A DNA stretch of 64,000 bases from Corynebacterium sp. ACRPS (GTDB lineage: Bacteria; Actinomycetota; Actinomycetes; Mycobacteriales; Mycobacteriaceae). Below, piece after piece: positions 4,614-27,025 of the stretch. The position numbers were made by a program, and so were the translations under genes. The stretch covers positions 62,001 through 126,000 of the forward strand of contig NZ_JAKRMY010000004.1 of NCBI RefSeq assembly GCF_022346005.1, given 5' to 3'. Below the pieces are notes generated by a model. That model ran no database searches, had not been told where the DNA came from, and worked only from the letters and a program-made list of their open reading frames with translations. The stretch's first letter is position 1. Each line of letters begins with the position of its first letter.

Positions 4614-6134
4614 ATGAAAATTTTGCGTGCGCGCTCAGCGCTAGGCTGTCTCGCGATGGTGACAGCGCTGAGCACGATAACAGCTTGTTCAGCGGGCCAT
4701 ACCGCGGTGGTAGATACCTCCGGCGACAACGCCGCCCTAACGGTGGCATCTAGTTCGGGGGCCACCTCGCTCGATTTCACCACTACCGGTGGGGCCGCCG
4801 CGCCCTCGGTGCTTATGGATAATGTCTATGAAACCTTGGTGCGCATCGATGAAGACGGCTCCATCACCCCAGGCTTAGCCAAGGACTGGGACATCAGTGA
4901 GGATGCGAAGACCTATACTTTCCACCTGCGCGATGGCGTGACCTTTTCCAATGGCGACCCCTTTACCGCGCAGACCGCAGCCTTTTCCATTAATTACGTA
5001 AAAAATGACTGGGCCAACGGCATTTCCGCTGCCATGGACCCCGTCGAAAGCGCCACCGCAGTAGATGACCACACCCTCAAGGTGCGCCTAGAAAAGCCCT
5101 CCAACCGCTGGCTGTGGTCCATGGGCACCACCATCGGCGCGATGATGTCGCCTAAGGGCATGGATGACCTTGCAGCGAAGCCTATCGGCACCGGCCCCTA
5201 CGAGGTGGCGGGATTTTCCCCCGCAGAATTCGTCTCCTTGCACAAGCGCGATGATTACTGGGGCACACCGTCTGAGCACGATGTCACGGTGCGCTACTTC
5301 CCCGATGCCATTTCCTCGGTCACCGCGCTGCGTTCGGGCGGAGTGGACGTCGTCTGGGGCGTGGGTAATCCCGAAATCCTCGATTCCCTGGATGATTCCA
5401 TCGATACCAACGTAGGCACCACCAATGGTGAGGTCCTGTTATCGATGAATAATGACCGCGCCCCCTTCGACGATCCGCGCGTGCGGCAGGCCGTGGCCTA
5501 CGCCGTCGACCGCGAGGCGGCCAATGACATCGTGTGGTCCGGCATGGCCACCGATACCGGCGGCGCGCCCATGCCGCCCACCGATCCTTGGTTCGAGGGC
5601 AAGAACTATTACGACTTCAACCCGGATAAAGCCCGCTCGCTGCTTGCCGATGCCGGCGCCGAGGGCACCCCACTCACCATCACCGTGCCCACGCTCTACT
5701 ACGCCCAGGCCATTTCCGAGCTGCTGTACTCGCAGCTTTCCGATGTCGGTTTTGATGTCACCCTCGAAACCGCCGAGTTCCCCGCCGTGTGGCTGGGCCA
5801 GGTTCACGGCGCCAAGGACTACCAGATGTCGATTATCTCCCACGTGGAGGCCCGCGATATTCCGGCGCTTTTTGGCAACCCGGATTACTACCTGAATTAC
5901 GATTCCGCCCGCACGCGCGAGCTGCTCGATAAGGCCGATACCGCAGCGCCTGAAGACTATCCCCGCCGCATGACGCAGGTGGTGGACCAAATCATGGCCG
6001 ATGCCGGCGCGCTGACCGTGATGAATATGCCGAATGTCGTTTTAACGCGCCACGGCATTAGCGGCTTGCACACAGATCAGGTCACCGACGCGATAGTCTT
6101 GCGCGATCTCACCGACGACAAGGAGGACCAATGA
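4614..6134 (+). CDS. ABC transporter substrate-binding lipoprotein (peptide/nickel/opine family, SBP_bac_5)
   Basis: This 506-residue exported lipoprotein captures the substrate for the importer encoded by the next three genes. The signal peptide ends in the lipobox TITAC with Cys25 as the lipidated residue. The mature part shows family 5 features: YETLVRI, then GLAKDWDISEDAKTYTFHLR near residue 90, and RQAVAYAVDR near 290. Peptides are the commonest substrates of this family, but nickel, opines and sugars also occur, and the sequence does not decide. The stop overlaps the next start by four bases (ATGA), so translation is coupled. Confidence 0.88.
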   Translation: MKILRARSALGCLAMVTALSTITACSAGHTAVVDTSGDNAALTVASSSGATSLDFTTTGGAAAPSVLMDNVYETLVRIDEDGSITPGLAKDWDISEDAKTYTFHLRDGVTFSNGDPFTAQTAAFSINYVKNDWANGISAAMDPVESATAVDDHTLKVRLEKPSNRWLWSMGTTIGAMMSPKGMDDLAAKPIGTGPYEVAGFSPAEFVSLHKRDDYWGTPSEHDVTVRYFPDAISSVTALRSGGVDVVWGVGNPEILDSLDDSIDTNVGTTNGEVLLSMNNDRAPFDDPRVRQAVAYAVDREAANDIVWSGMATDTGGAPMPPTDPWFEGKNYYDFNPDKARSLLADAGAEGTPLTITVPTLYYAQAISELLYSQLSDVGFDVTLETAEFPAVWLGQVHGAKDYQMSIISHVEARDIPALFGNPDYYLNYDSARTRELLDKADTAAPEDYPRRMTQVVDQIMADAGALTVMNMPNVVLTRHGISGLHTDQVTDAIVLRDLTDDKEDQ

Positions 6135-7096
6135 GTACCTCTCGAGCCCAGGCCTTAATCCGGCCGCTGCTGCGCTTTGTGCTCACGCTTTTTCTCGCCT
6201 CCCTCATCATTTTCGCGCTCATGCGCGCCGTGCCCGGCAACCCGGCGCGCGTCGCGTTGGGGGTTAATGCCACTGATGATGCCATCGCCGAGCTCAGCGC
6301 GGAACTCGGCCTGGACCGGCCGCTGCTCGCACAGTATGTCGAGTGGGTAAAGGGCCTGGCCACCGGCGATTTCGGCAAGTCGCTGTCCTCGCAGCAGGAC
6401 ATCACCCCGCTCGTCCTTGACCGCCTGCAGGTCACGCTCATCCTCATCGGCCTGGCCATGGCCTTGGCGCTGGCCTGCGCGATTCCCATCGGTATGTGGT
6501 TGGCGCACAACCGCAATTCGCGGGTTGCCGGCTTGGTCTCTGCGGGAACGCAGCTGGGCATCGCCGTACCAAGCTTCTTGGTCGGCATCATCTTAGTGGC
6601 CATCTTCGCGGTCCACCTGGGCTGGCTGCCGGCCAATGGTTGGGTGCCACCTAACCGCGGCGTAGGCGATTTCCTGCGCCACCTCATCCTGCCGGTCATC
6701 GCCTTGGCCCTGGTCCAGGGTGCGATGCTCACGCGCTATATGCGCTCCTCGGTGCTCGACGTTATGGACCAAGACTATATCCGTACCGCGCGCGCCCTGG
6801 GCGATTCCCCGCGGGAGGCCCTGCACCGCCACGGGCTGCGCAATGCCGCGCTGCCGGTACTGACTGTTTCTGGCCTGCAATTGACCTCGATGGTGGTAGG
6901 CGCCGTGGTCATTGAATCCGTCTTCGTCATCCCCGGCGTAGGTTCCATGCTGCTCGATGCAGTCTCCGTGCGCGATCTGACCACGGTGCAGACGCTTGTC
7001 ATGCTGCTGGTCACCTTCGCGCTGGCAGTAAACATGCTTACCGATGTCGCCTACCGCCTCATCGATCCCCGAATCAAGGCAGGTGACGCACGATGA
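6131..7096 (+). CDS. ABC transporter permease, DppB/OppB type
   Basis: This 321-residue inner-membrane subunit has about six hydrophobic segments. The DppB family N-terminal signature (ALMRAVPGNPARVALG) and the EAA loop contacting the ATPase (DYIRTARALGDSPREALHRHGLRNA, around residues 215-240) are both present. AAGGAGG lies just before ATG 6131, inside the end of the binding-protein gene. It pairs with the DppC-type permease encoded next, and the two genes overlap by four bases. Confidence 0.92.
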   Translation: MSTSRAQALIRPLLRFVLTLFLASLIIFALMRAVPGNPARVALGVNATDDAIAELSAELGLDRPLLAQYVEWVKGLATGDFGKSLSSQQDITPLVLDRLQVTLILIGLAMALALACAIPIGMWLAHNRNSRVAGLVSAGTQLGIAVPSFLVGIILVAIFAVHLGWLPANGWVPPNRGVGDFLRHLILPVIALALVQGAMLTRYMRSSVLDVMDQDYIRTARALGDSPREALHRHGLRNAALPVLTVSGLQLTSMVVGAVVIESVFVIPGVGSMLLDAVSVRDLTTVQTLVMLLVTFALAVNMLTDVAYRLIDPRIKAGDAR

Positions 7097-16151: not shown

Positions 16152-16187
16152 CGGTTTGGCATGCCATAAGCCTTCTACCCTGCGGAG

Positions 16188-16283
16188 CGTATGCTGTGAG
16201 ACCCGTGCACCGTGGGAACCGTGTGCCATGAGACCCGTGCGCCGTAAGGCTCGCGCGCCATGGGAACCGTATGCCAAGAGACA
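16188..16283. repeat. Degenerate 16-bp tandem repeat, six clear units
   Basis: Six head-to-tail units start at 16188, 16204, 16220, 16236, 16252 and 16268, with consensus CGTRYGCCRTGRGAMC. Weaker units can be followed to about 16315, and a related GCATGCCATAAGCC lies upstream at about 16159. Identity between units is roughly 60-85 per cent. There are no spacers, so it is not a CRISPR array. It resembles a minisatellite. Confidence 0.8.
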
Positions 16284-16428
16284 GGACGCCCTGGGGTCCG
16301 GCCGCCGTAGCATCTTTGTGCCGCCGGTGCGCTGTGGTGTGTCCTCAACGCTGGGTGGTGGCTAAGTCACGGCCTTGGCGCGGTGGTAGATGTTCGCGAG
16401 CGACCAGTGGTTAGCTGGGTAGGAGGCT

Positions 16429-17655
16429 TTATGCTTCGAGGAGGCTGCGGCCGAAATAATCGGATTCATCGGCAATGCCGGGAAGCGCGTAGAAGTAGCC
16501 GCCGCCGTAGGGGCGGATATAGTCAGCCAGCGGTTCGCCTTCGAGGCGTTTTTGCACCGTAATGAACTGTCGTTCCAGGTCCTGCTGGAAGGAGATGAAG
16601 ACCAGCCCCACGTCGAGGGTGCCGTTATCGCGCACGCCGTTGTCGTAATTATAAGCGCGGCGCAACATAAGTTGGTCAGCGGTTTCTGGGGTGCGGGGGT
16701 TGGCCAGGCGGATGTGGGCATCGGTGGGAATGACATCGCCGGTGGCGTCGTCGAGGTAATCCGGCTCGGCGTGCTCGTCGCCGCCCGATAACGGGCCGCC
16801 CGTTGCGCGGTCGCGGCCGAAGATTTGCTCCTGCTCAGCAATGGAAATGCGATCCCAAAACTCGGTGTACATGGCAATAAGCCGCACCGCCATATAGCTG
16901 CCGCCCGTGGCCCAGGCAGGCTCATCCGAACCGGCCCACACGAGCGAATCGTAGTCATCGGGGCCAGGATTGACGATGCCATCCTTAAACCCCAGGTGAT
17001 TGCGCTGCGTACCCGATGGCCGCGGCGAGTTCATATAACCATTTTGCCGCCAGCGCACCGCCACATCGCCGCGCGTATGTCGCAATATATCGCGCAGGGC
17101 GTGGAGAACGGTATCGCGTTCATCGGCGCAAATCTGCAAGGCTAAGTCACCGTGGCACATTTCTTCTTGCAGGGTGTCATCGGCAAACGATTCCATCGCG
17201 CTCAAGTGCGCGGGCTTGTGGGCGGCAAGGCTGAAGCGGTCATCGAAAAGCGAATCGCCCACCGCGAGGGTGATGGATAAGTGATCGGCCGGCAGCTCTG
17301 GGCCCAACTCGCCCGAATCCATCGCCGGATAGGCAATTCCGTCGGGGGCGAGCGTGCCACCTGCGGTTAAGATGCGCGCCCTTTCACTTAGCGTGCGCAG
17401 GAGCTTGTCCAAACGGGCTTTTGTCTTCACCTGCACGTCCAGCGCCACTATTTCCGAGTATTTCTGCGGGGGATTGATGATGCCTTGCTGGTGTTCGCCG
17501 TGAAAATCCAGCGCGCCCGGCTGATCCAAGGAGTCGGTGGATTCCAACGGAAGCGAGGGGGACTCAGCTTCTGCTCCCGGGGCTGCGCCGACGGCCGCGG
17601 AGGCGGCGAGGCCAGATAAAAAGGAGCGGCGGGAAAAGTTAAACGGGCACGGCAC
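16429..17655 (-). CDS. efeB: Dyp-type heme peroxidase EfeB (Tat-exported)
   Basis: This 408-residue peroxidase of the EfeB/deferrochelatase type is exported folded with its heme. The Tat signal SRRSFLSGLAA lies at residues 9-19 and is followed by an Ala-rich stretch. The GFKDGIVNP distal motif (GxxDG) is near residue 220. The proximal heme histidine lies in DAHIRLANPR near residue 315. It is thought to oxidise ferrous iron or to handle heme in EfeUOB systems. GTG 17655 overlaps the efeO stop (TAGTG), giving tight coupling. It is the last gene of the operon. Confidence 0.92.
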   Translation of the reverse strand: MPCPFNFSRRSFLSGLAASAAVGAAPGAEAESPSLPLESTDSLDQPGALDFHGEHQQGIINPPQKYSEIVALDVQVKTKARLDKLLRTLSERARILTAGGTLAPDGIAYPAMDSGELGPELPADHLSITLAVGDSLFDDRFSLAAHKPAHLSAMESFADDTLQEEMCHGDLALQICADERDTVLHALRDILRHTRGDVAVRWRQNGYMNSPRPSGTQRNHLGFKDGIVNPGPDDYDSLVWAGSDEPAWATGGSYMAVRLIAMYTEFWDRISIAEQEQIFGRDRATGGPLSGGDEHAEPDYLDDATGDVIPTDAHIRLANPRTPETADQLMLRRAYNYDNGVRDNGTLDVGLVFISFQQDLERQFITVQKRLEGEPLADYIRPYGGGYFYALPGIADESDYFGRSLLEA

Positions 17656-18776
17656 TAGTTCATCCTCCGGATAACGGTCATGGTGGCAACCGGGGCGAGC
17701 AGCTCATTCGCCTTGGCGACGCCCGCCTGCAAACGCAAGCGGTCCTCCTGCGGCCAGTCCGCAAAAGCGACGCTAGGCGCACCACCGTATTTATCGTCGA
17801 ATTCCTCAGCAAGAGCGTCCAAGTCCGCGAGCTGGTCGTAGATGGGCTCGGTGTCTAAGCCGCGATCCTCGACCAAAGAGCGCACGGGATCCAACGTCAC
17901 CCGCGTCGATGTAATAACCCCGCGCAGGGCGGAAGGAAGGGCATGGGCGCCGAAATCGCACTCGCCGCGCAGGTCAAAGCGCTCGAACTCCTCCATCACC
18001 TCATGCGCGCGCAGCCCATAATCCGGGGCGGGGATGGCGAAATGGGAGGTATCGAGGGCGTGGGCGGTTTTGTCGGTGGCATCGGCAAGCGCGGTGGCGG
18101 GCAGGGTGGCATCGCTGGGCGGGCGGTTGGACCACAGGATGCGCTCGATGTCTTCGTAGCCCTCCAAATCCGGGCCCGGCCACTCCGCGCTGGAATCGTC
18201 GAAGGAACGGTAATACTCCAAGTAGTCGAGGTAGGCGGCTCGGGCGGCGGAGCGGGAGGAGGAGGTGGCATCGGCAAGCGCATGCGCACGCTTTTGCAGC
18301 TCCGGCACGCGCTTTTTCTGGTTTTCTGCCTGCTTGATGGACACCGCGGCGACCTCGTGATCCGTAATGGGAACCATCTTGGGAGCATCAGCCACGGTAG
18401 AGCCCGCCACCGTGAAATCATCCGACTCCACCGCGGAATCGTTGTGAAATACACAGGTCAGGTGGTAGGTTCCATCCTCCAGCTGGGGGTTCCACTCGCG
18501 GATGGCGGGGGTACCGATACGCTCGAGGACCTGGTAGGCATTACCCTTGTCATCTGAAACATAGACCGTGAGGGCAAGCCCGGTGGTGTTATTGATCTTC
18601 CATTTCGCCTCGCCCTGCACGTCCTCAGGCACCGGGCAGGAATACACATCGCGCACGGCGAGCTCGCGCATGGGTTGCTCGTCGCTGTGCCCGCCGAGCC
18701 TCGCCTGGGCAGCCGTTTGCGGGATGGAAAGCCCAACGGCGAGCGCGAATGCAATGGCGAAACGGGAAATCTTCAT
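17655..18776 (-). CDS. efeO: Iron-uptake protein EfeO (cupredoxin plus M75 imelysin-like domain)
   Basis: This 373-residue secreted protein has a Sec signal peptide (residues 1-25), a cupredoxin-like N-terminal domain (about 35-125) and a helical M75 domain. EfeO binds extracellular iron for the EfeU permease in typical systems. The second M75 motif (RAHEVMEEFERF) is kept. The first motif, normally GxHxxE, reads GYEDIE here, so the histidine is replaced by glutamate. The gene starts 3 bases after the upstream phosphoesterase stop and overlaps efeB. No efeU is present in the window. Confidence 0.9.
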   Translation of the reverse strand: MKISRFAIAFALAVGLSIPQTAAQARLGGHSDEQPMRELAVRDVYSCPVPEDVQGEAKWKINNTTGLALTVYVSDDKGNAYQVLERIGTPAIREWNPQLEDGTYHLTCVFHNDSAVESDDFTVAGSTVADAPKMVPITDHEVAAVSIKQAENQKKRVPELQKRAHALADATSSSRSAARAAYLDYLEYYRSFDDSSAEWPGPDLEGYEDIERILWSNRPPSDATLPATALADATDKTAHALDTSHFAIPAPDYGLRAHEVMEEFERFDLRGECDFGAHALPSALRGVITSTRVTLDPVRSLVEDRGLDTEPIYDQLADLDALAEEFDDKYGGAPSVAFADWPQEDRLRLQAGVAKANELLAPVATMTVIRRMN

Positions 18777-18779
18777 AAC

Positions 18780-20681
18780 TTAGAACGGCAGGTTCTTCAA
18801 ATCTAGGCCGGGGTGACCGCTCATGAACCAGCCGATGATGCCGGCGGCGATGCCCAGTGCGGCGAGGATGCCGATGATGCCTGCCTTGGAGGACCCGGAA
18901 GCGGCGTGGTTGGTGTCCGGCTGCTGGGCCTTATCCAGCGTGGTCACGGCGGGAACGCCCTGCTCGGTGACCTTGGTGTCATTCATGCCATCGACAACCG
19001 GCTTCAGATTGGTGCCAGCGCGTGAGGTGTCATCCACGCGCTCTACGGAGTCATAATCTTCTGCGACAGTGCCATCGGTTTCATTGAGGAAGAGCTTCGG
19101 AGCCTTATCTGCAGCCGCAAAGTCGAACATGCCGGTGAGCGCACCTGCGCGGTCATCGAAGGAATCGCCGCCCAAGCGGCCGAGGCCCCAGTTGTCCTGG
19201 ATGAACTGGGTTACCGAGGTCTGCTCGGTATAGGTGGAATCGATGTGGTTGGTCTTGGCGTAGGGGGATACAACCAGCAGCGGCTGGCGGGTGCCGGGTC
19301 CGCACTGGCCGTTCTTATCGCCCTTGATGCCTACCTTTGCGGCAGCGGCGGTGCAGATTTCCTTATCCTGGTGCGGGTCGGCGGAGCCATTGAGGATTTC
19401 CGGCGCCTTGTGGTCGTACCAGCCATCGGAATCGTCGTAAGCGATGACGACGGCGGTGGAATCCCACTCCGGGGAGTTTTGCAGCTCGTTGATGTAGTGG
19501 GTGATAAACGCCTGCTCATCCAGTGGGTTGGAGTAGCCGGCGTGGCCATCCTGGTAGTTGGCGGCCTTGAGGAAGGACACGGAGGGCAGGTTGCCCTGCT
19601 CGATGGCGGTATCGAAGTCCGCGAGGTCGTACTGGTGGTTTGCCTGGTCGGTCTTGCCAATCATGTCATCGCTGGACGGGGCCAGGTGGTGCGGGTTGGC
19701 GGTAGAGGCGTAGTACTGGAACGGCTCGTGGTGCGGGTTGTAATCCGTCTGGTTCTGACCGGTCAGCGTGGTGTGCGAAGAACCGCAGCGGGCGCGAGAG
19801 TCCTTCGTCGCCTCATCGGTGGGGCGGAATCCGCCTTGGAACCAGCCCCAGGTGACGTCCTTATCGTTGAGCTGGTCACCGATGTTCTTGGAGTGCATCG
19901 CGGTGACCTGGTTGGTACCGGCGGAGGACTTATTGGAGCAGTCATCGAAAAGCGGGTCCGGGTCGCCCACCACGGTGGCAGTGCTGCCGTCCTCGGATAC
20001 GCCGGCCAGGGCGTGGTTCTTGCCATCTTCGATTTTCTGCTGGTCACCCGTGGCTGGGTCGTGCATGGTGGCATCCGCGACGGTGCCGGAAATCAGGTTC
20101 AGCGCTCCCGGGGTGGAGGGGCCGAAGATGGTGGAAAAGCTGTTGTCATTCAGCGCGAAGTTCTGCGCGTAGTTCCACATGCCGGTCACGGTATTGCCGT
20201 CGTAGTATCCCATGGTCATGCCGGGGGTGGCGTACGAGCCTTCGCCATACTTATCGATGTCCGTGGACACCGTCTCCGGGAACTTGTCCATCTTGCCGCC
20301 GTTGTAGGCTTCCTGCTCATCGGCGTAATGGTGGTTCTGGTCCGTGGTCACGGCGTGTTCGGGAGCGATGCGGAAGGGCTTGATGGAGTTGGGGTTCTTC
20401 TCCCCCAGCAGGTCAGTATTTTCGAGGTTTTCTGCCCGAGGGGTGTCGTCCTTGGCGGTGAATTTGGGGGCGGGCTTCTCGCTGCCCTGGAGTTTCTCGT
20501 CGTCGTTATTTGCGGCGTGGGGGTAGGTGCCGAAGTAGTGGTCGAAGGAAATGTTTTCGGAGTAAATGACCACGACGTGATCGATGGGGGTCTTGGTTTC
20601 GGCCTGTGCGATACCGGGGGCCAAGAAAGTTGTGGCAGCGGCTGCGGCGCACACTGCCACAGCGCGAGAGCGAAGCTTCAT
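18780..20681 (-). CDS. Secreted, membrane-anchored phosphoesterase (phospholipase C / acid phosphatase family)
   Basis: This 633-residue extracellular enzyme belongs to the phosphoesterase family of non-haemolytic phospholipase C and AcpA-type acid phosphatases. It has a signal peptide (1-27, ending AQA), the N-terminal motif DHVVVIYSENISFDHYFG near 33-50, PSTPGALNLISG near 180, and the metal-site motif AYDDSDGWYDH near 415. A Ser/Ala-rich linker leads to one C-terminal membrane segment (about 595-620), so the enzyme is anchored outside. The substrate (phospholipid, phosphate monoester) is not decidable. It is the first gene of an operon with efeO and efeB. The only Shine-Dalgarno is weak (GGCGGA about 9 bases upstream). 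Confidence 0.88.
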   Translation of the reverse strand: MKLRSRAVAVCAAAAATTFLAPGIAQAETKTPIDHVVVIYSENISFDHYFGTYPHAANNDDEKLQGSEKPAPKFTAKDDTPRAENLENTDLLGEKNPNSIKPFRIAPEHAVTTDQNHHYADEQEAYNGGKMDKFPETVSTDIDKYGEGSYATPGMTMGYYDGNTVTGMWNYAQNFALNDNSFSTIFGPSTPGALNLISGTVADATMHDPATGDQQKIEDGKNHALAGVSEDGSTATVVGDPDPLFDDCSNKSSAGTNQVTAMHSKNIGDQLNDKDVTWGWFQGGFRPTDEATKDSRARCGSSHTTLTGQNQTDYNPHHEPFQYYASTANPHHLAPSSDDMIGKTDQANHQYDLADFDTAIEQGNLPSVSFLKAANYQDGHAGYSNPLDEQAFITHYINELQNSPEWDSTAVVIAYDDSDGWYDHKAPEILNGSADPHQDKEICTAAAAKVGIKGDKNGQCGPGTRQPLLVVSPYAKTNHIDSTYTEQTSVTQFIQDNWGLGRLGGDSFDDRAGALTGMFDFAAADKAPKLFLNETDGTVAEDYDSVERVDDTSRAGTNLKPVVDGMNDTKVTEQGVPAVTTLDKAQQPDTNHAASGSSKAGIIGILAALGIAAGIIGWFMSGHPGLDLKNLPF

Positions 20682-20807
20682 CTTATTTTCCGCCTTAAGT
20701 TAAACGAGTGAAACAAAGAGGGAGAAAGTGGCTGTGGCTCGCCGAAGAGTCATCGGTCGCTTTCGAATCGAAATTAAACGCCGCGAAACCATAAACCGCA
20801 AACACTC

Positions 20808-20838
20808 AAAATGGGCATTCCCAGTCTCAGGAATGCCC
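20808..20838 (-). terminator. Rho-independent terminator of lepA
   Basis: Read on the minus strand, GGGCATTCC pairs with GGAATGCCC across a short loop, and ATTTTG follows. It lies about 95 bases after the lepA stop and separates lepA from the phosphoesterase operon. Confidence 0.8.
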
Positions 20839-20931
20839 TATAGGTGCAGCTCAGCCTCGCTTTTAGGCGGCGGCCACCGCGGAGATTGTTAACTGAAAGT
20901 TAAGGTACTATTACGCTGCGCTTTCCAGTGC

Positions 20932-22782
20932 CTAGTCGTCCCCGTCGGTCGACAGTGCCGCCACAAAGGCCTCCTGCGGCACCGACACGGAGCCCAAGGT
21001 CTTCATGCGCTTTTTACCCGCCTTCTGCTTTTCCAGCAGCTTGCGCTTACGCGAAATATCGCCGCCGTAGCACTTGGCCAGCACGTCCTTGCGCATGGCG
21101 CGGATGTTTTCGCGGGCGATGACCTTGGTGCCAATAGCCGCCTGGACGGGGACCTCGAATTGCTGGCGCGGGATGAGCTCTTTGAGCTTCTTGGTCATCT
21201 TATTGCCGTACCACTGGGCGGAATCGCGGTGGATGATGGCGGAGAAGGCATCCACCGGGTCGCCGTTGAGGAGGATATCCACCTTAACGAGGTCCGATTG
21301 CTGCTCACCGGCCTCCTCATAGTTGAGCGAGGCGTAGCCCTTGGTGCGGGATTTCAACATGTCGAAGAAATCAAAGATGATTTCGCCCAAGGGCATGGTG
21401 TAGCGCAGCTCCACGCGGTCTTCGGACAGGTAATCCATCCCGCCCATCTGGCCACGCTTGGATTGGCATAGCTCCATCGTCGGGCCGACGAACTGCTCGG
21501 GCACGATGACGGTCATGGAAACAATGGGCTCGTAGACCTCATTGAGCTTGCCTTCCGGCCAATCTGAAGGGTTGTGAACCCAGCTTTCCTCGCCGTCTTC
21601 TGCCACCACGCGGTAGGTCACGGACGGGGCGGTAGAAATCAGGTCGAGTCCGAACTCGCGCTCCAGGCGGTCGCGGGTGATTTCCATGTGCAGCAGGCCC
21701 AAGAAACCGCAGCGGAAGCCAAAGCCTAGGGCGACGGAGGTCTCGGGTTCGAATGTCAAGGAGGCATCGTTAAGCTGCAGCTTTTCCAGCGCATCGCGCA
21801 GGTCGGGGAAATCGGCCTGGGAGATGGGGAAAAGCCCGGAATAGACCATCGGGTCAGGGTCCTTGTAGCCCTTCAGCGGGGTCTCGGCGCCGCCGTGGGA
21901 CCAGGTAACGGTATCGCCCACCTTGGTCTCGCGCACGTCCTTCACGCCGGTAATCAGGTAGCCCACCTCGCCAGGGCCCAATCCCTCACACTTTTGCATC
22001 GTGGGCGAGACGATGCCGATTTCCAGCAGCTCGTGGTTGGCGTTGGTGGACATCATCGTCACCTTCTGGCGCGGGGTGAGCTTGCCGTCCACCATGCGGA
22101 TATAGGTCACCACGCCGCGGTAGGTGTCATAGACGGAGTCAAAAATCATCGCGCGCGCGGGGGCATCGGGAGTGTGCTCCGAGGAGGGCGGCGGCACCAA
22201 CTCGCAGACCTTATCGAGCAGCTCGACCACGCCCTCGCCGGTCTTGCCCGATACCTTCAGCACTTCCTCGGGCTCGCAGCCGATGATATTGGCGATTTCC
22301 AGCGCGTACTTTTCCGGATCCGCCGCAGGCAGGTCGATCTTATTGAGCACTGGGATGATTTCCAGGTCATTTTCCATCGCCAGGTACAGGTTGGCGAGGG
22401 TTTGGGCTTCGATGCCCTGGGCGGCATCGACAAGCAGAATGGCGCCTTCACACGCCTCGAGCGCACGGGAGACTTCGTACGTAAAGTCCACGTGGCCGGG
22501 CGTGTCGATCATCTGCATGACGATCTGCTCGCCTGCCGATGCCCCAGATTGCGGCACCCACGGCAGGCGCACGTTCTGCGCCTTAATAGTAATGCCGCGT
22601 TCGCGCTCGATATCCATGTTATCGAGGAACTGGTCACGCATATCGCGCTCCGCAACCACCTTAGATAGCTGCAGGATGCGGTCTGCCAGCGTCGACTTTC
22701 CGTGGTCGATGTGAGCAATAATGCAGAAATTACGGATCCGGGAGGGATCCGTAAACGTCGTGGCCGCAAAGTTTTCAGACAT
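20932..22782 (-). CDS. lepA: Elongation factor 4 (LepA) GTPase
   Basis: This 616-residue translational GTPase binds the ribosome and back-translocates or aids assembly. The G1 motif AHIDHGKST lies at about residues 24-32, the RERGITIK switch I motif near 60, DTPGHVDF (G3) near 95 and NKID (G4) near 147. The EF4-specific C-terminal domain ends with the conserved [16 protein letters not shown] block near 570. The length is normal. It is divergent from the PemK-like gene, with only 18 bases between the two start codons. Confidence 0.98.
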
Positions 22783-22787
22783 ACGTC

Positions 22788-22793
22788 TACAAT
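22788..22793 (+). promoter_or_regulatory. -10 box for a leaderless PemK-like transcript
   Basis: TACAAT ends 7 bases before ATG 22801, so transcription should begin at or next to the start codon. There is no Shine-Dalgarno in that gap. Leaderless messages are frequent in corynebacteria. Confidence 0.6.
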
Positions 22794-22800
22794 AGTCGAC

Positions 22801-23337
22801 ATGAATTCCGGCATGCTCACCCGTCTGCGCGAGGCGCTCGGAATCAGCGAGCGCGAGCCCGTGGACTCCGGCCTCAACCGCATCAACTCCCAGTTAGGGC
22901 TGGATAGGTCCACCCACAACCACGAGCCGCGCAAGGCCGCCTCCATCCAGGTCGAGGCCACCGCGGCGCACCCCCGCTCCATCTTCTTCTCCCCCGATAT
23001 GGATGGCCAGGCCGATTCCGGCGAGGTGGTATGGGTGTGGACGCCATCGGAAGGCAAGCAGTCGCCTCCCCGCGAGCGCGCCATCTTGGTGATCGGGCGC
23101 ACCCGCACCACCGTGACGGGCCTGCTCATTTCCGCCAACCCGGAGCATGCGCTTGACGATGCCTGGCTCGAAATCGGCAGCGGCGAATGGGACGCCTCCG
23201 GGCGCAATTGTTGGGTGCGCTTGGACCGTTTATTGGAGGTTTCCGAGGAGCAGGTGCGCCGCCAGGGCATCCTTTTTCCAGAACGCAGGTTCGAACGGAT
23301 TGCGAACCGCTTGCGCTCGCGCTATCACTGGGCGTAG
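22801..23337 (+). CDS. PemK/MazF-like family protein
   Basis: This 178-residue protein has a PemK/MazF-like core (about residues 50-170). It has the strand GEVVWVWTP, then [12 protein letters not shown] and [12 protein letters not shown], and it ends with an arginine-rich helix. True MazF toxins are about 110 residues and are encoded with a small antitoxin upstream. This protein is longer and has no partner on either side, and homologues occupy the same place between lepA and rpsT in other corynebacteria as I recall. A house-keeping RNA-processing role is as likely as a toxin. The leaderless promoter supports ATG 22801; longer frames run into lepA. Confidence 0.7.
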
Positions 23338-24828: not shown

Positions 24829-25671
24829 ATGAACAACGTCAAGCCTCTGGTGAAATGGGCCGGCGGAAAACGCCAGCTCTTGCCGCATATTCACGCCGCC
24901 CTGCCCGCTGGGACGCCGCGGCGTTATTATGAACCCTTCATCGGCGGCGGAGCGGTTTTATTTTCGCTCACCCCGGCCTCAGCGCGGGTCAATGACCTCA
25001 ACTCGGAGCTGATTAATTTATATGAGGTAGTGCGCGAAGGTGTCGACGAGCTCATCGGCTTGGTATCGACGTATCCGAACGACGCGGACTTTTTCTACCA
25101 GCTGCGCGCGGTGGACCGGGATGCGGAACGATTCGCGGCGCTTTCTGCCACCGAGCGCGCCGCGCGGACGCTGTATCTGAATAAGACCTGCTATAACGGC
25201 CTGTACCGGGTAAATTCCGCGGGGCAATTCAATGCGCCTTTTGGACGCTATAAAAACCCCACTATCTGTGATGCGGATACGCTGCGCGGGGTCCACCGGT
25301 ATTTTCGGGACAATGACGTTACCTTCACGCAGGGCGATTTCGCTGCGGCGGTGGCAGGTGCTGGTGAGGGAGACTTTGTCTATTTCGATCCGCCCTATGA
25401 CCCGGTCAACGTCACCAGTTCCTTTACCGGTTATCAAAAGGGCGGTTTTGACCGCGCGGAACAAGAGCGATTGAAGGCGGTGTGCGATGACCTCGATGCC
25501 CGCGGGGTGAAGTTCCTCCTCTCTAATTCCGCCACGGAGTTCATCCGCGACCTCTACGCGGATTTTTCCATCGACACCGTTGCGGCCACCCGCGCCATCA
25601 ACTCCGTGGGATCGCGCCGCGGCAAGGTAGATGAAGTGCTCGTGCGTAACTACGAGGTGGGCCATGAGTAA
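24829..25671 (+). CDS. DNA adenine methyltransferase (D12 class, Dam/DpnM type)
   Basis: This 280-residue N6-adenine methylase transfers a methyl group from S-adenosylmethionine to DNA. The N-terminal KWAGGKRQLLPHI binds the cofactor, with YYEPFIGGGAVLFSL as the FxGxG-like motif. The catalytic DPPY is at residues 187-190. D12-class enzymes of this type mostly modify GATC, but specificity cannot be read here. The last 8 bases overlap the nuclease gene, which is the arrangement of a type II restriction-modification pair. It is coded in the opposite direction to its TetR neighbour. Confidence 0.92.
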   Translation: MNNVKPLVKWAGGKRQLLPHIHAALPAGTPRRYYEPFIGGGAVLFSLTPASARVNDLNSELINLYEVVREGVDELIGLVSTYPNDADFFYQLRAVDRDAERFAALSATERAARTLYLNKTCYNGLYRVNSAGQFNAPFGRYKNPTICDADTLRGVHRYFRDNDVTFTQGDFAAAVAGAGEGDFVYFDPPYDPVNVTSSFTGYQKGGFDRAEQERLKAVCDDLDARGVKFLLSNSATEFIRDLYADFSIDTVAATRAINSVGSRRGKVDEVLVRNYEVGHE

Positions 25672-27025
25672 AGTACCGAGCGCCCAAGAACAGCGGGAGC
25701 TTCGCACGCTGTTCGGTGTCCCAGAGGGCGAAAAGCTTGGCCTCGATGATTGGGGCTGGCTGCGCATCGTGGCCTCGGGGTGTGGCGAGCAGCTAGAAGA
25801 AAAAGGATACTTCTACCTCACGGCCAAAGAGCTAAAGGAGCTCTCCGGCCGGGAGCCGCGGCTGATGGCCAAACACGACTTTTCCACCTCTCGGCCGTGG
25901 ATTTTCAAGGAATTGGGGCTTGGGATTCTCCCGGTTAGCCGCAGCGAATACTTTGTCGGGCCATTGGACCTGTATGAACAGTTCCCGGAGCCCACCCACG
26001 CCGGGGCGGGTTCCGTGCGCACGCTGGACATGCCCGCGGGCCTTGACACCCTCGATATCGAAAGCGTGAACTCGGAATCGATGGCGTTGAATGTGGCATC
26101 GGCAAGCGGCATGCTTGAGCACTTCTTGGGATGCGAACCATTGCAGGCCACCGTCGCTGGGCGCATGTCGTCGCTGGAGATGACCATTCCGGTGCCGGAT
26201 CTTGGGCTGAAAGTCAAGGTCGACCGCGCGCAGATGGAAATCGACGGCGGCTTCGAATCCCTCGAGCATTTGGTGCTGGTGGAGGCGAAAAATCACATCT
26301 CCGAAGACTTCAATATCCGGCAATTGTATTTTCCGTACCGGCGTTTCCAGCAATGGCTATCCAAGGCCGTGGTGCCGGTCTTTTTGGTCTACTCGAATGG
26401 GATTTTCCACCTGTATCGGTACGACTTCAGCGATCCCGCGGATTTTCGCAGCATCGCGCTGGTAGACCACGCTCGCTACGCCCTGAGCGCTTCGCACCTC
26501 AACGTGGAGGATGCGCTGGGCATCATTGGCTCCGTCGAGGCCGAGCCGGAGCCGGCGGGGATTCCCTTCCCACAGGCCAATAGCTTCGAGCGCGTGGTCA
26601 ACCTGGTGGAGCTCATCGCGCAGCAGCCGATGAGCAAGGAGGACATCGCCGAGCAGTACGATTTCCATCTGCGCCAGGCGGACTATTACGCCAATGCGGC
26701 CTGCTACCTCGGGCTGCTGGCGCTTGCCGATGGTCACTATCAGCTCACCCCTCGCGGCGAAAAGGCCATCGCACAGCCGCGGCGCGATGGGCGCAACGCT
26801 GCCCTGCTGCGCGCGTTGGCGGCGCGGCAGGTATTCCGGCAGGCGCTAGAGGTGAGCCTGCGGCGTGGGAAGGTGGCCGAGGCGCACGAGATAGCGGCGG
26901 CGATAGAAGGACTCGGCTTGGGCGCTGGCACGGCGAGGCGGCGGGCCTCGACGGTGGCGCGGTGGATCCAGTGGGCGCTGGATGTGGTGGCAGAGGGCGA
27001 ACCTGAAACCCTGCCCGGGCTTTAA
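25664..27025 (+). CDS. Putative type II restriction endonuclease (PD-(D/E)XK fold)
   Basis: This 453-residue protein overlaps the methylase and is probably its cognate nuclease. A PD-(D/E)XK active site is visible as Asp194 with Glu207-Ala-Lys209 (EIDGG and LVEAKNH). An N-terminal region with RPWIFKELGLGILPVSRSEY (about residues 75-95) resembles restriction nucleases with uncharacterised N-terminal domains. The C-terminal third (about 300-440) is helical, with winged-helix character. I do not recognise a named enzyme, and cleavage specificity is unknown. ATG 25664 is chosen over GTG 25631, which would extend far into the methylase. The stop overlaps the convergent LysE gene by 4 bases. Confidence 0.7.
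   Translation: MSKVPSAQEQRELRTLFGVPEGEKLGLDDWGWLRIVASGCGEQLEEKGYFYLTAKELKELSGREPRLMAKHDFSTSRPWIFKELGLGILPVSRSEYFVGPLDLYEQFPEPTHAGAGSVRTLDMPAGLDTLDIESVNSESMALNVASASGMLEHFLGCEPLQATVAGRMSSLEMTIPVPDLGLKVKVDRAQMEIDGGFESLEHLVLVEAKNHISEDFNIRQLYFPYRRFQQWLSKAVVPVFLVYSNGIFHLYRYDFSDPADFRSIALVDHARYALSASHLNVEDALGIIGSVEAEPEPAGIPFPQANSFERVVNLVELIAQQPMSKEDIAEQYDFHLRQADYYANAACYLGLLALADGHYQLTPRGEKAIAQPRRDGRNAALLRALAARQVFRQALEVSLRRGKVAEAHEIAAAIEGLGLGAGTARRRASTVARWIQWALDVVAEGEPETLPGL

Follow-up and report, generated by a model that had tools for sequence, protein, structure and literature searches.

A permease-free EfeO–EfeB pair next to an AcpA-type phosphoesterase in Corynebacterium and other actinobacteria, and its probable link to phosphate scavenging

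The elemental iron import system EfeUOB, also named YwbLMN and FepABC, is among the closest described relatives of the locus analysed here, a three-gene set on the minus strand of a 64,000-nucleotide stretch of Corynebacterium sp. ACRPS (contig NZ_JAKRMY010000004.1, positions 62,001 to 126,000; the whole stretch is called the window hereafter), in which EfeO and EfeB are encoded next to a phosphoesterase and without the permease EfeU. Classical EfeO proteins carry the metal motifs HxxE, acidic site IV and GEEDRY (site names from PMC9174327), and what EfeO and EfeB do independently of EfeU has been described as unsettled in reports on these proteins (PMC3143127, PMC9174327). The phosphoesterase has its own relatives in the AcpA/PLC superfamily, represented by Francisella AcpA (2d1g), SapM and the plant enzyme NPC4; in AcpA, the metal ligands are reported to be E43, N44, D386 and D387 and the nucleophile S175, together with the histidines H106, H287, H288 and H350 (PMC6635428). 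Another described enzyme, likened to that of the window by description only, is PhoC (cg3393) of Corynebacterium glutamicum, a putative secreted phosphoesterase reported to belong to the Pho regulon under the control of PhoR (PMC4448153, PMC3353115). Finally, a precedent for peroxidases of the DyP family in metal maturation has been reported in Streptomyces lividans, where DtpA is needed for the copper enzyme GlxA; in the DtpA–Sco–ECuC–GlxA set, a DyP exported by twin-arginine translocation (Tat) and surface metal proteins serve one extracellular metalloenzyme (PMC4736821), although the metal is copper, the enzyme a radical oxidase and the partners others, so that the likeness is one of analogy only. 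We propose that in the branch to which the window operon belongs the EfeO–EfeB pair has probably moved into phosphate scavenging, where it would serve the phosphatase, perhaps through loading or oxidation of its metal.

In the window, the operon immediately follows lepA and runs in the order phosphoesterase–EfeO–EfeB. It comprises an AcpA-type secreted phosphoesterase of 633 amino acids (PF04185; 18780-20681, minus strand), a diverged EfeO of 373 amino acids (17655-18776, minus) and EfeB, a DyP peroxidase of 408 amino acids with a Tat-like signal (16429-17655, minus). The coordinates of the open reading frames (ORFs) leave 3 bases between the phosphoesterase and EfeO and give EfeO and EfeB one base in common, which bears out the compact three-gene operon, with its 3-base gap and its overlap, of a preliminary description of this DNA; the signal peptide and membrane anchor given there to the phosphoesterase also agree with an N-terminal signal and a C-terminal helix read by eye. 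The phosphoesterase matches PF04185 at 262 bits in a Pfam search and, as a profile, Francisella AcpA at E 7.5e-143 over nearly the full AcpA length. Alignment to 2d1g gives the catalytic set E42, N43, H117, S189, H317, H318, H380, D416 and D417, all nine residues being invariant in an 11-row alignment: AcpA E43, N44, D386 and D387 correspond to E42, N43, D416 and D417, S175 to S189, and H106, H287, H288 and H350 to H117, H317, H318 and H380. Since the catalytic serine, the metal ligands (E/N/D/D) and the substrate histidines are all present, the protein is predicted to be an AcpA-type phosphatase. The full catalytic set is shared with the AcpA/PLC superfamily, whereas the C-terminal membrane helix of the Corynebacterium enzyme and its place within an EfeO–EfeB operon are not.

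The permease is missing from the whole genome as well as from the operon. No FTR1/EfeU match was obtained in the window genome (2.40 Mb, 99.99% complete) with a search that was positive in 4/14 known genomes serving as control; the operon without EfeU of the preliminary description is thus upheld, and the separate, co-regulated efeU that it had suggested looking for elsewhere in the genome was not met with, FTR1 matches being zero. Within Corynebacterium, FTR1 is present in 56/201 genomes and accompanies the triad in 4 of the 18 genomes that have it (G035, G076, G078 and G192; labels in G and L are our own for genomes and loci), the other 14 having no FTR1 match; in the two of these four in which its place was examined (G035 and G192), FTR1 belongs to a separate EfeUOB set. 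The same picture was obtained in a scan of named genomes with the phosphoesterase profile, confined to the best 80 of 552 relatives, which may omit close relatives of the window: EfeU was not detected in any of the stretches covered at these 80 loci (tblastn, E <= 1e-3) with six Corynebacterium EfeU queries that were positive in 14 control loci. Among the loci examined, no operon was seen to contain both phosphoesterase and EfeU, in agreement with the earlier suggestion that the enzyme stands in for EfeU as the partner.

The preliminary description had recommended a search for co-occurrence of the three genes and had allowed that their adjacency might be special to this strain, which it is not: triads are found in 18/201 Corynebacterium genomes and in many other genera. 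EfeO relatives occur in 23 of the 201 genomes, 18 of them strong (44-100% identity) and five weak and of the classical type. Each of the 18 strong EfeO genes is flanked by the phosphoesterase on one side and by EfeB on the other; in G182 two frames make up the phosphoesterase and EfeB runs off the contig, and in G078 EfeO is split. Phosphoesterases of at least 65% identity occur in these 18 of the 201 genomes and in no other, 13 further ones having remote matches alone. When extended to the full genus, the phosphoesterase is present in 22/242 genomes, and the four genomes added have all three genes. Comparison of these genomes indicates that the Corynebacterium triad has been inherited as a unit, retained or lost together. 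In the near relative G464, the intact lepA and M20 genes are 98% and 96% identical to those of the window, and similarity to EfeO or EfeB is absent across 11 kb; a remnant between these two genes (L233, about 5980-6160) consists of a decayed leader and 28 residues with similarity to the phosphoesterase (E 2e-4). Another arrangement is that of G192 (L049), where lepA is downstream of EfeB and the triad lies on the other side of lepA; as judged from the sequences, this cassette has been moved, or re-acquired beside the same gene.

Beyond the genus, 59 of the best 80 of 552 loci have EfeO–EfeB–phosphoesterase on one strand, three (Corynebacterium) have phosphoesterase–EfeO–EfeB, and two have EfeB–phosphoesterase at contig ends; the genera among the 80 include Streptomyces, Kribbella, Amycolatopsis, Kutzneria, Actinomadura, Tsukamurella, Microbacterium and Kocuria. 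A conserved fourth gene was rejected on clustering of the flanking ORFs of the 59 loci, which gave three clusters of at least 6 loci whose members differ in distance and strand. The 26 loci of a second set were chosen in two ways, 16 within the order by EfeO match and 10 within Corynebacterium by FTR1 or weak EfeO match. Eight of the 26 have a triad-type EfeO–EfeB with phosphoesterase and no EfeU, and 12 are classical, with EfeU and without phosphoesterase (G360, G311, G207, G125, G048, G150, G114, G066, G198, G063 and the second loci of G035 and G192), a count that gives no measure of EfeU operons lacking the phosphoesterase in general because most classical loci were selected for FTR1 or weak EfeO. 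In four others (G217, G377, G391 and G437) EfeU accompanies a triad-branch EfeB and the phosphoesterase is missing; G007 shows neither partner and G272 is cut. Linkage is not universal. In a sample of the phylum, the phosphoesterase was found at E <= 1e-60 in 6/217 genomes, only one of which (G000, that of the window) has a close EfeB, and those of G581 and G571 stand alone, EfeO–EfeB being absent within about 6 kb. Likewise, EfeB proteins scoring above 400 bits in G590, G500, G515, G234 and G681 are 43-46% identical to that of the window and lie in other operons, one with EfeU and none with a phosphoesterase seen. As far as the sequences tell, the triad is a widespread actinobacterial branch of EfeUOB from whose operon EfeU is absent and in which an AcpA-type phosphatase is the usual partner.

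The EfeB proteins support the same division. Window EfeB exceeds the NCBIfam cut-off for the deferrochelatase/peroxidase family (TIGR01412; 438.8 vs 428 bits) and matches PDB entry 2y4f at E 4.7e-116; its GFKDG (222-226) and H314, which we take to be the GxxDG and histidine of the DyP catalytic motif, are invariant in an 11-row alignment, and the Tat arginine pair was read by eye, the Pfam TAT_signal score being 20 bits, under the cut-off of 22.7. In an unrooted tree of 113 EfeB rows, all 91 that are linked to a phosphoesterase fall, with four EfeU rows, inside one branch of 97 rows (support 94), the 12 classical EfeU rows and G007 form a separate branch (support 100), and G681, which has EfeU, is placed with two others beside the phosphoesterase-linked branch. 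Partner labels need 2 changes on this tree vs 16.0 in shuffles. The four nested EfeU rows, whose operons have no phosphoesterase (L198, L201, L202 and L203, from G217, G437, G391 and G377, respectively), are surrounded by forks supported at 90-92, which suggests a single partner swap. A second DyP-type peroxidase, 32-33% identical to the EfeB queries, is encoded on contig 22 of G000 (216205-217245; L230); the 7.8 kb covered around it gave no match to EfeO or EfeU. In Paenibacillus, an expression table lists as lowered a DyP peroxidase and an adjacent Fe2+/Pb2+ permease (PMC7793946), a pair that, going by this table, is an EfeU-type set in another phylum.

EfeO, on the other hand, has diverged strongly. 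Window EfeO scores 38.5 bits, far below the NCBIfam NF041757 cut-off of 270, and Pfam gives zero matches for it at E <= 0.001; an eight-row EfeO profile picks up the solved structures of EfeO, EfeM and Algp7. In its AlphaFold model (mean predicted local distance difference test score, pLDDT, 84.2), a beta-sandwich cupredoxin-like domain (about residues 37-124) precedes a helical M75/imelysin-like domain (about 139-367), and the sole PDB matches of the model at E <= 0.001 are EfeO, EfeM and Algp7 entries (7wgu, E 3.6e-12; 7q1g, E 4.7e-6). The predicted structure indicates that the EfeO fold, cupredoxin-like plus M75, is retained in the window protein. The motifs are another matter: the cupredoxin-domain motif CK..M, the site IV ExxE (ERIEP) and GEE each occur in 10/10 classical EfeO proteins and in 0/59 of the triad proteins outside Corynebacterium, where GxHxxE is retained in 56/59. 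Two features appear instead, LR[AT]HE in 58/59 triads outside Corynebacterium and in all 8 Corynebacterium representatives vs 0/10 classical proteins, and an RR pair close to the C-terminus, found in 58/59 vs 0/10; of the EfeU rows that fall inside the triad branch, 1/4 has LR[AT]HE and 0/4 have RR. In the window protein, ERIEP and GEE are absent, LRAHE is present, and GYEDIE replaces GxHxxE, so that the HxxE histidine is gone. Among the 8 Corynebacterium representatives, GxHxxE is kept in the deep branches G192, G182 and G076, and the histidine is lost in the other five (GYEDIE in the window, GHAEVE, GYAEVE, EYGGVE and GYADVE). Imelysin-like proteins of the IPPA family are likewise reported to be marked by the loss of this histidine (PMC3143127). 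Taken together, comparison shows a triad EfeO that appears to have been rebuilt, with the classical metal motifs gone and the fold kept.

Such divergence might also reflect decay. In that case EfeB would guard the phosphatase or detoxify peroxide as an oxidative side job, EfeO would be a decaying scaffold, and a shared surface condition would account for the association. In distant Corynebacterium triads EfeO falls to about 45% identity, whereas EfeB and the phosphatase remain near 70%, and the HxxE histidine is lost in the clade of the window, as decay would have it; however, the retention of LR[AT]HE across triads, inside and outside Corynebacterium, points to an EfeO under selection, and we regard this explanation as very improbable.

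The upstream regions provide the evidence for a link to phosphate. Iron boxes were scored as sites of the DtxR/IdeR type. The PHO box is described as two direct repeat units of 11 nt, with the motif GTTCACC in S. coelicolor (PMC4415409, PMC7866108). We scored GTTCACC-N4-GTTCACC, allowing up to 3 mismatches, over the 250 bases upstream of EfeO in the 59 triads outside Corynebacterium, regions that depend on start codons picked by rule. A Pho box was found before 32/59 triads vs 10/177 random windows of the same loci and 3/177 shuffles; 300 permuted motifs reached a maximum of 28/59 and a mean of 2.3, the top two being the same box shifted by one base. When each locus is searched in full, with ties allowed, its best Pho hit falls between -350 and +250 of the EfeO ORF start in 34/59, a stretch that makes up about 4% of a locus, and 32 of the 34 first-listed hits share one orientation. 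By comparison, an iron box (at most 6 mismatches) precedes 2/59 triads vs 0/177 windows and 1/177 shuffles. In the second sample, Pho boxes (at most 3 mismatches) were found before 7/8 triads, one of them perfect, vs 2/16 EfeU operons (Fisher p 0.0007, by a test that ignores kinship), and iron boxes (at most 5) before 0/8 vs 9/16. The nested EfeU rows have a Pho box in 0/4 and an iron box at this threshold in 2/4 (L198 with 2 mismatches, L203 with 5, L202 with 7 and L201 with 8). A box upstream, as expected of the Pho regulon, is therefore found in part of the wider branch (32/59, and 7/8 in the second sample).

Because Pho boxes are common and iron boxes rare in triads, a role in phosphate acquisition is suggested rather than one in iron uptake. 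This goes against the proposal of the preliminary description that the phosphoesterase serves iron uptake by freeing phosphate-bound iron, which finds no support in the triads outside Corynebacterium, with Pho boxes in 32 and iron boxes in 2 of 59. A fuller version of that proposal is iron acquisition without EfeU, in which EfeO would capture iron, EfeB would oxidise it or extract heme iron, the phosphatase would remove the phosphate of iron-phosphate or of phosphorylated ligands, and import of the iron would fall to another transporter. The window EfeB above the deferrochelatase/peroxidase cut-off, the retained EfeO fold, GxHxxE in most triads outside Corynebacterium and near-perfect iron boxes in two triads are in line with it, but the rarity of iron boxes next to common Pho boxes, and the absence from all 59 triads of CK..M, ERIEP and GEE, each present in all ten EfeU-operon proteins, make it unlikely. 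Alternatively, phosphate could be drawn from ferric phosphate, with EfeO and EfeB acting under phosphate starvation on surface iron-phosphate, whose redox state or ligands they would alter, and the phosphatase acting in parallel on organic esters. The Pho boxes and the presence of an iron-binding fold next to a phosphatase would fit, as would a paper that assumes ferric iron to be reduced by EfeB (PMC3143127); another, however, describes EfeB as an oxidiser of iron before uptake (PMC4736821), an activity that would fix phosphate instead of freeing it, and the changes in the EfeO sites offer no hint of a phosphate-binding role, which leaves this explanation quite unlikely.

In the phosphate-scavenging reading that we favour, phosphate starvation would switch the operon on, the phosphatase would cleave organic phosphate esters on the cell surface and so release their phosphate, and EfeO and EfeB would not feed iron into the cell; less surely, the pair would serve the phosphatase by binding and oxidising its active-site metal ion. 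The window operon shares with EfeUOB a full-score EfeB, the two-domain EfeO fold and the EfeO–EfeB gene order, and differs in that operon and genome are without EfeU, the partner is a phosphatase, triad EfeO proteins have no CK..M, ExxE or GEE (that of the window also no HxxE histidine) and the wider branch has Pho boxes more often than iron boxes. Metal service by EfeO and EfeB is suggested by their constant association with the phosphatase, the lack of a permease, the DtpA precedent and the behaviour of related enzymes: ethylenediaminetetraacetic acid (EDTA) is reported to lower AcpA activity by about 25% (PMC9837106), and ascorbate to inhibit both AcpA and SapM, the activity of the latter being also reduced by dithiothreitol (DTT; PMC6635428), effects of ascorbate and DTT that would fit a redox-sensitive metal. 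In its most specific form, a remodelled EfeO would carry the metal and EfeB would keep it ferric, so that the surface phosphatase stays active, and EfeO–EfeB would be a general pair for metal delivery and oxidation, open to use by an importer (EfeU, iron regulon) or by an enzyme (phosphatase, Pho regulon), with partner and control site exchanged together; this form is tentative and, on balance, doubtful.

Several observations weigh against this reading or parts of it. Inhibition of SapM by phosphorylated ascorbate is reported to be competitive (PMC6635428), so that ascorbate inhibition need not be a redox effect, which makes metal service somewhat less probable; in the same report no metal was detected in SapM by electron paramagnetic resonance (EPR) or inductively coupled plasma mass spectrometry (ICP-MS), and the metals tested, Fe3+ included, are said to give the enzyme no help. 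The plant homologue NPC4 is described as insensitive to EDTA (PMC9837106). Judging from its altered motif, window EfeO, with the HxxE histidine lost, may bind metal poorly. The phosphoesterase occurs without EfeO–EfeB in 16 of the best 80 of 552 loci, 10 of these 16 with a Pho box before it, and such lone enzymes indicate that it can work alone. On the side of control, no Pho box at threshold precedes 27 of the 59 triads outside Corynebacterium, and two triads, of Actinoallomurus (L091 and L102), have a near-perfect iron box, with 1 mismatch each. Within Corynebacterium the motif is found at 3 mismatches or fewer in just 9/22 triads, of about six lineages. The clade of the window reaches just 4-5 mismatches (4 or fewer being attained by 107/420 random windows), its best-listed hits mostly lie elsewhere, at -337 or within the leader described below, and the GTTAAC repeat of the window matches those of relatives solely in place and orientation.

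The Pho motif itself is suited to this genus, where it precedes pstS at 0-3 mismatches in 14/14 Corynebacterium genomes, with 3 in that of the window, a level also reached by 18/420 random 350-base windows. In the nine Corynebacterium triads with 3 mismatches or fewer it is mostly located 190-230 bases before the phosphoesterase start used, on the non-coding strand (at 297 in G192). The homologous place in the window is occupied by a weak 11-bp direct repeat, GTTAACTGAAAGTTAAGG (20888-20905, plus strand), with 5 mismatches to the Pho motif counted by hand and within chance; it adjoins the end of lepA, about 90 bases before the -35 box and past the likely terminator. A reading of this repeat as an MtrA box, from which it differs by 6 mismatches, was set aside because the sequences of relatives at roughly this position resemble Pho boxes. 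No DtxR-like box was recognised before the operon, the best hit having 7/18 mismatches; the statement of the preliminary description that the promoter has no iron box therefore stands, although such an absence is weak evidence. A sigma-A-like promoter, TTGCGG-N17-TTTAAT (20773-20801, minus), is predicted by eye and is similar in relatives, and an inverted repeat between it and lepA, GGGCATTCC...GGAATGCCC (20813-20838, no strand), is the probable lepA terminator.

Between promoter and operon lies a conserved leader of 41 nt (20724-20764, minus) with GAAAG...CTTTC ends, a candidate 5'-terminal hairpin. A model of it gives E < 1e-14 in 11 of the 242 genomes searched, all with the triad and one copy each, followed by G464 (8.6e-7) and a next best of 0.02, with matches at E <= 1 in 36/242. 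It misses 11 of the 22 triad genomes; by eye, look-alikes are present in G104, G049, G078, G035, G477 and G461, and none was seen in G192, G182, G076, G126 and G054. In G461 the inner part is lost and GAAAG-TAACC-CTTTC remains, a single case that favours a hairpin over a fixed site for a protein. Comparison of the leader with Rfam gave nothing above chance and its covariation was not significant (157/500 shuffles equally high), on which grounds a riboswitch family was rejected; a leader peptide was also rejected, because a one-base change in loop length shifts the frame between relatives. On comparison across these genomes, we regard the element as a leader carried by some members of the clade rather than as a riboswitch family.

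Other features of the window lie on both sides of the operon. Repetitive DNA with units like GAGACCCGTGCGCCG and GGAACCGTATGCCA was seen by eye at about 16180-16290, just 3' of EfeB. Upstream of lepA and opposite to it there is a PemK/MazF-like gene (22702-23337, plus; Pfam PF02452, 30 bits), and at 24829-27025 (plus) an ORF resembling a Dam-type DNA methyltransferase is followed by one of 464 amino acids, by eye a possible restriction-modification pair.

The protein families involved are each known. Among the open-licence PubMed Central papers searched, no pairing of EfeO or EfeB with a phosphoesterase was found, nor, among the matches listed, a link of EfeO to the Pho regulon or phosphate limitation, and the permease-free EfeO–EfeB pair with an AcpA-type phosphatase, often with Pho boxes, was likewise not found in the literature searched. 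Annotations of the triad branch as an iron uptake system may mislead. Pairs of EfeO and EfeB that are free of a permease and tied to one enzyme, and apparently to phosphate control, allow the function of the pair alone to be addressed directly, and, if the proposed role is true, bacterial phosphate scavenging would gain an iron- or heme-dependent step.

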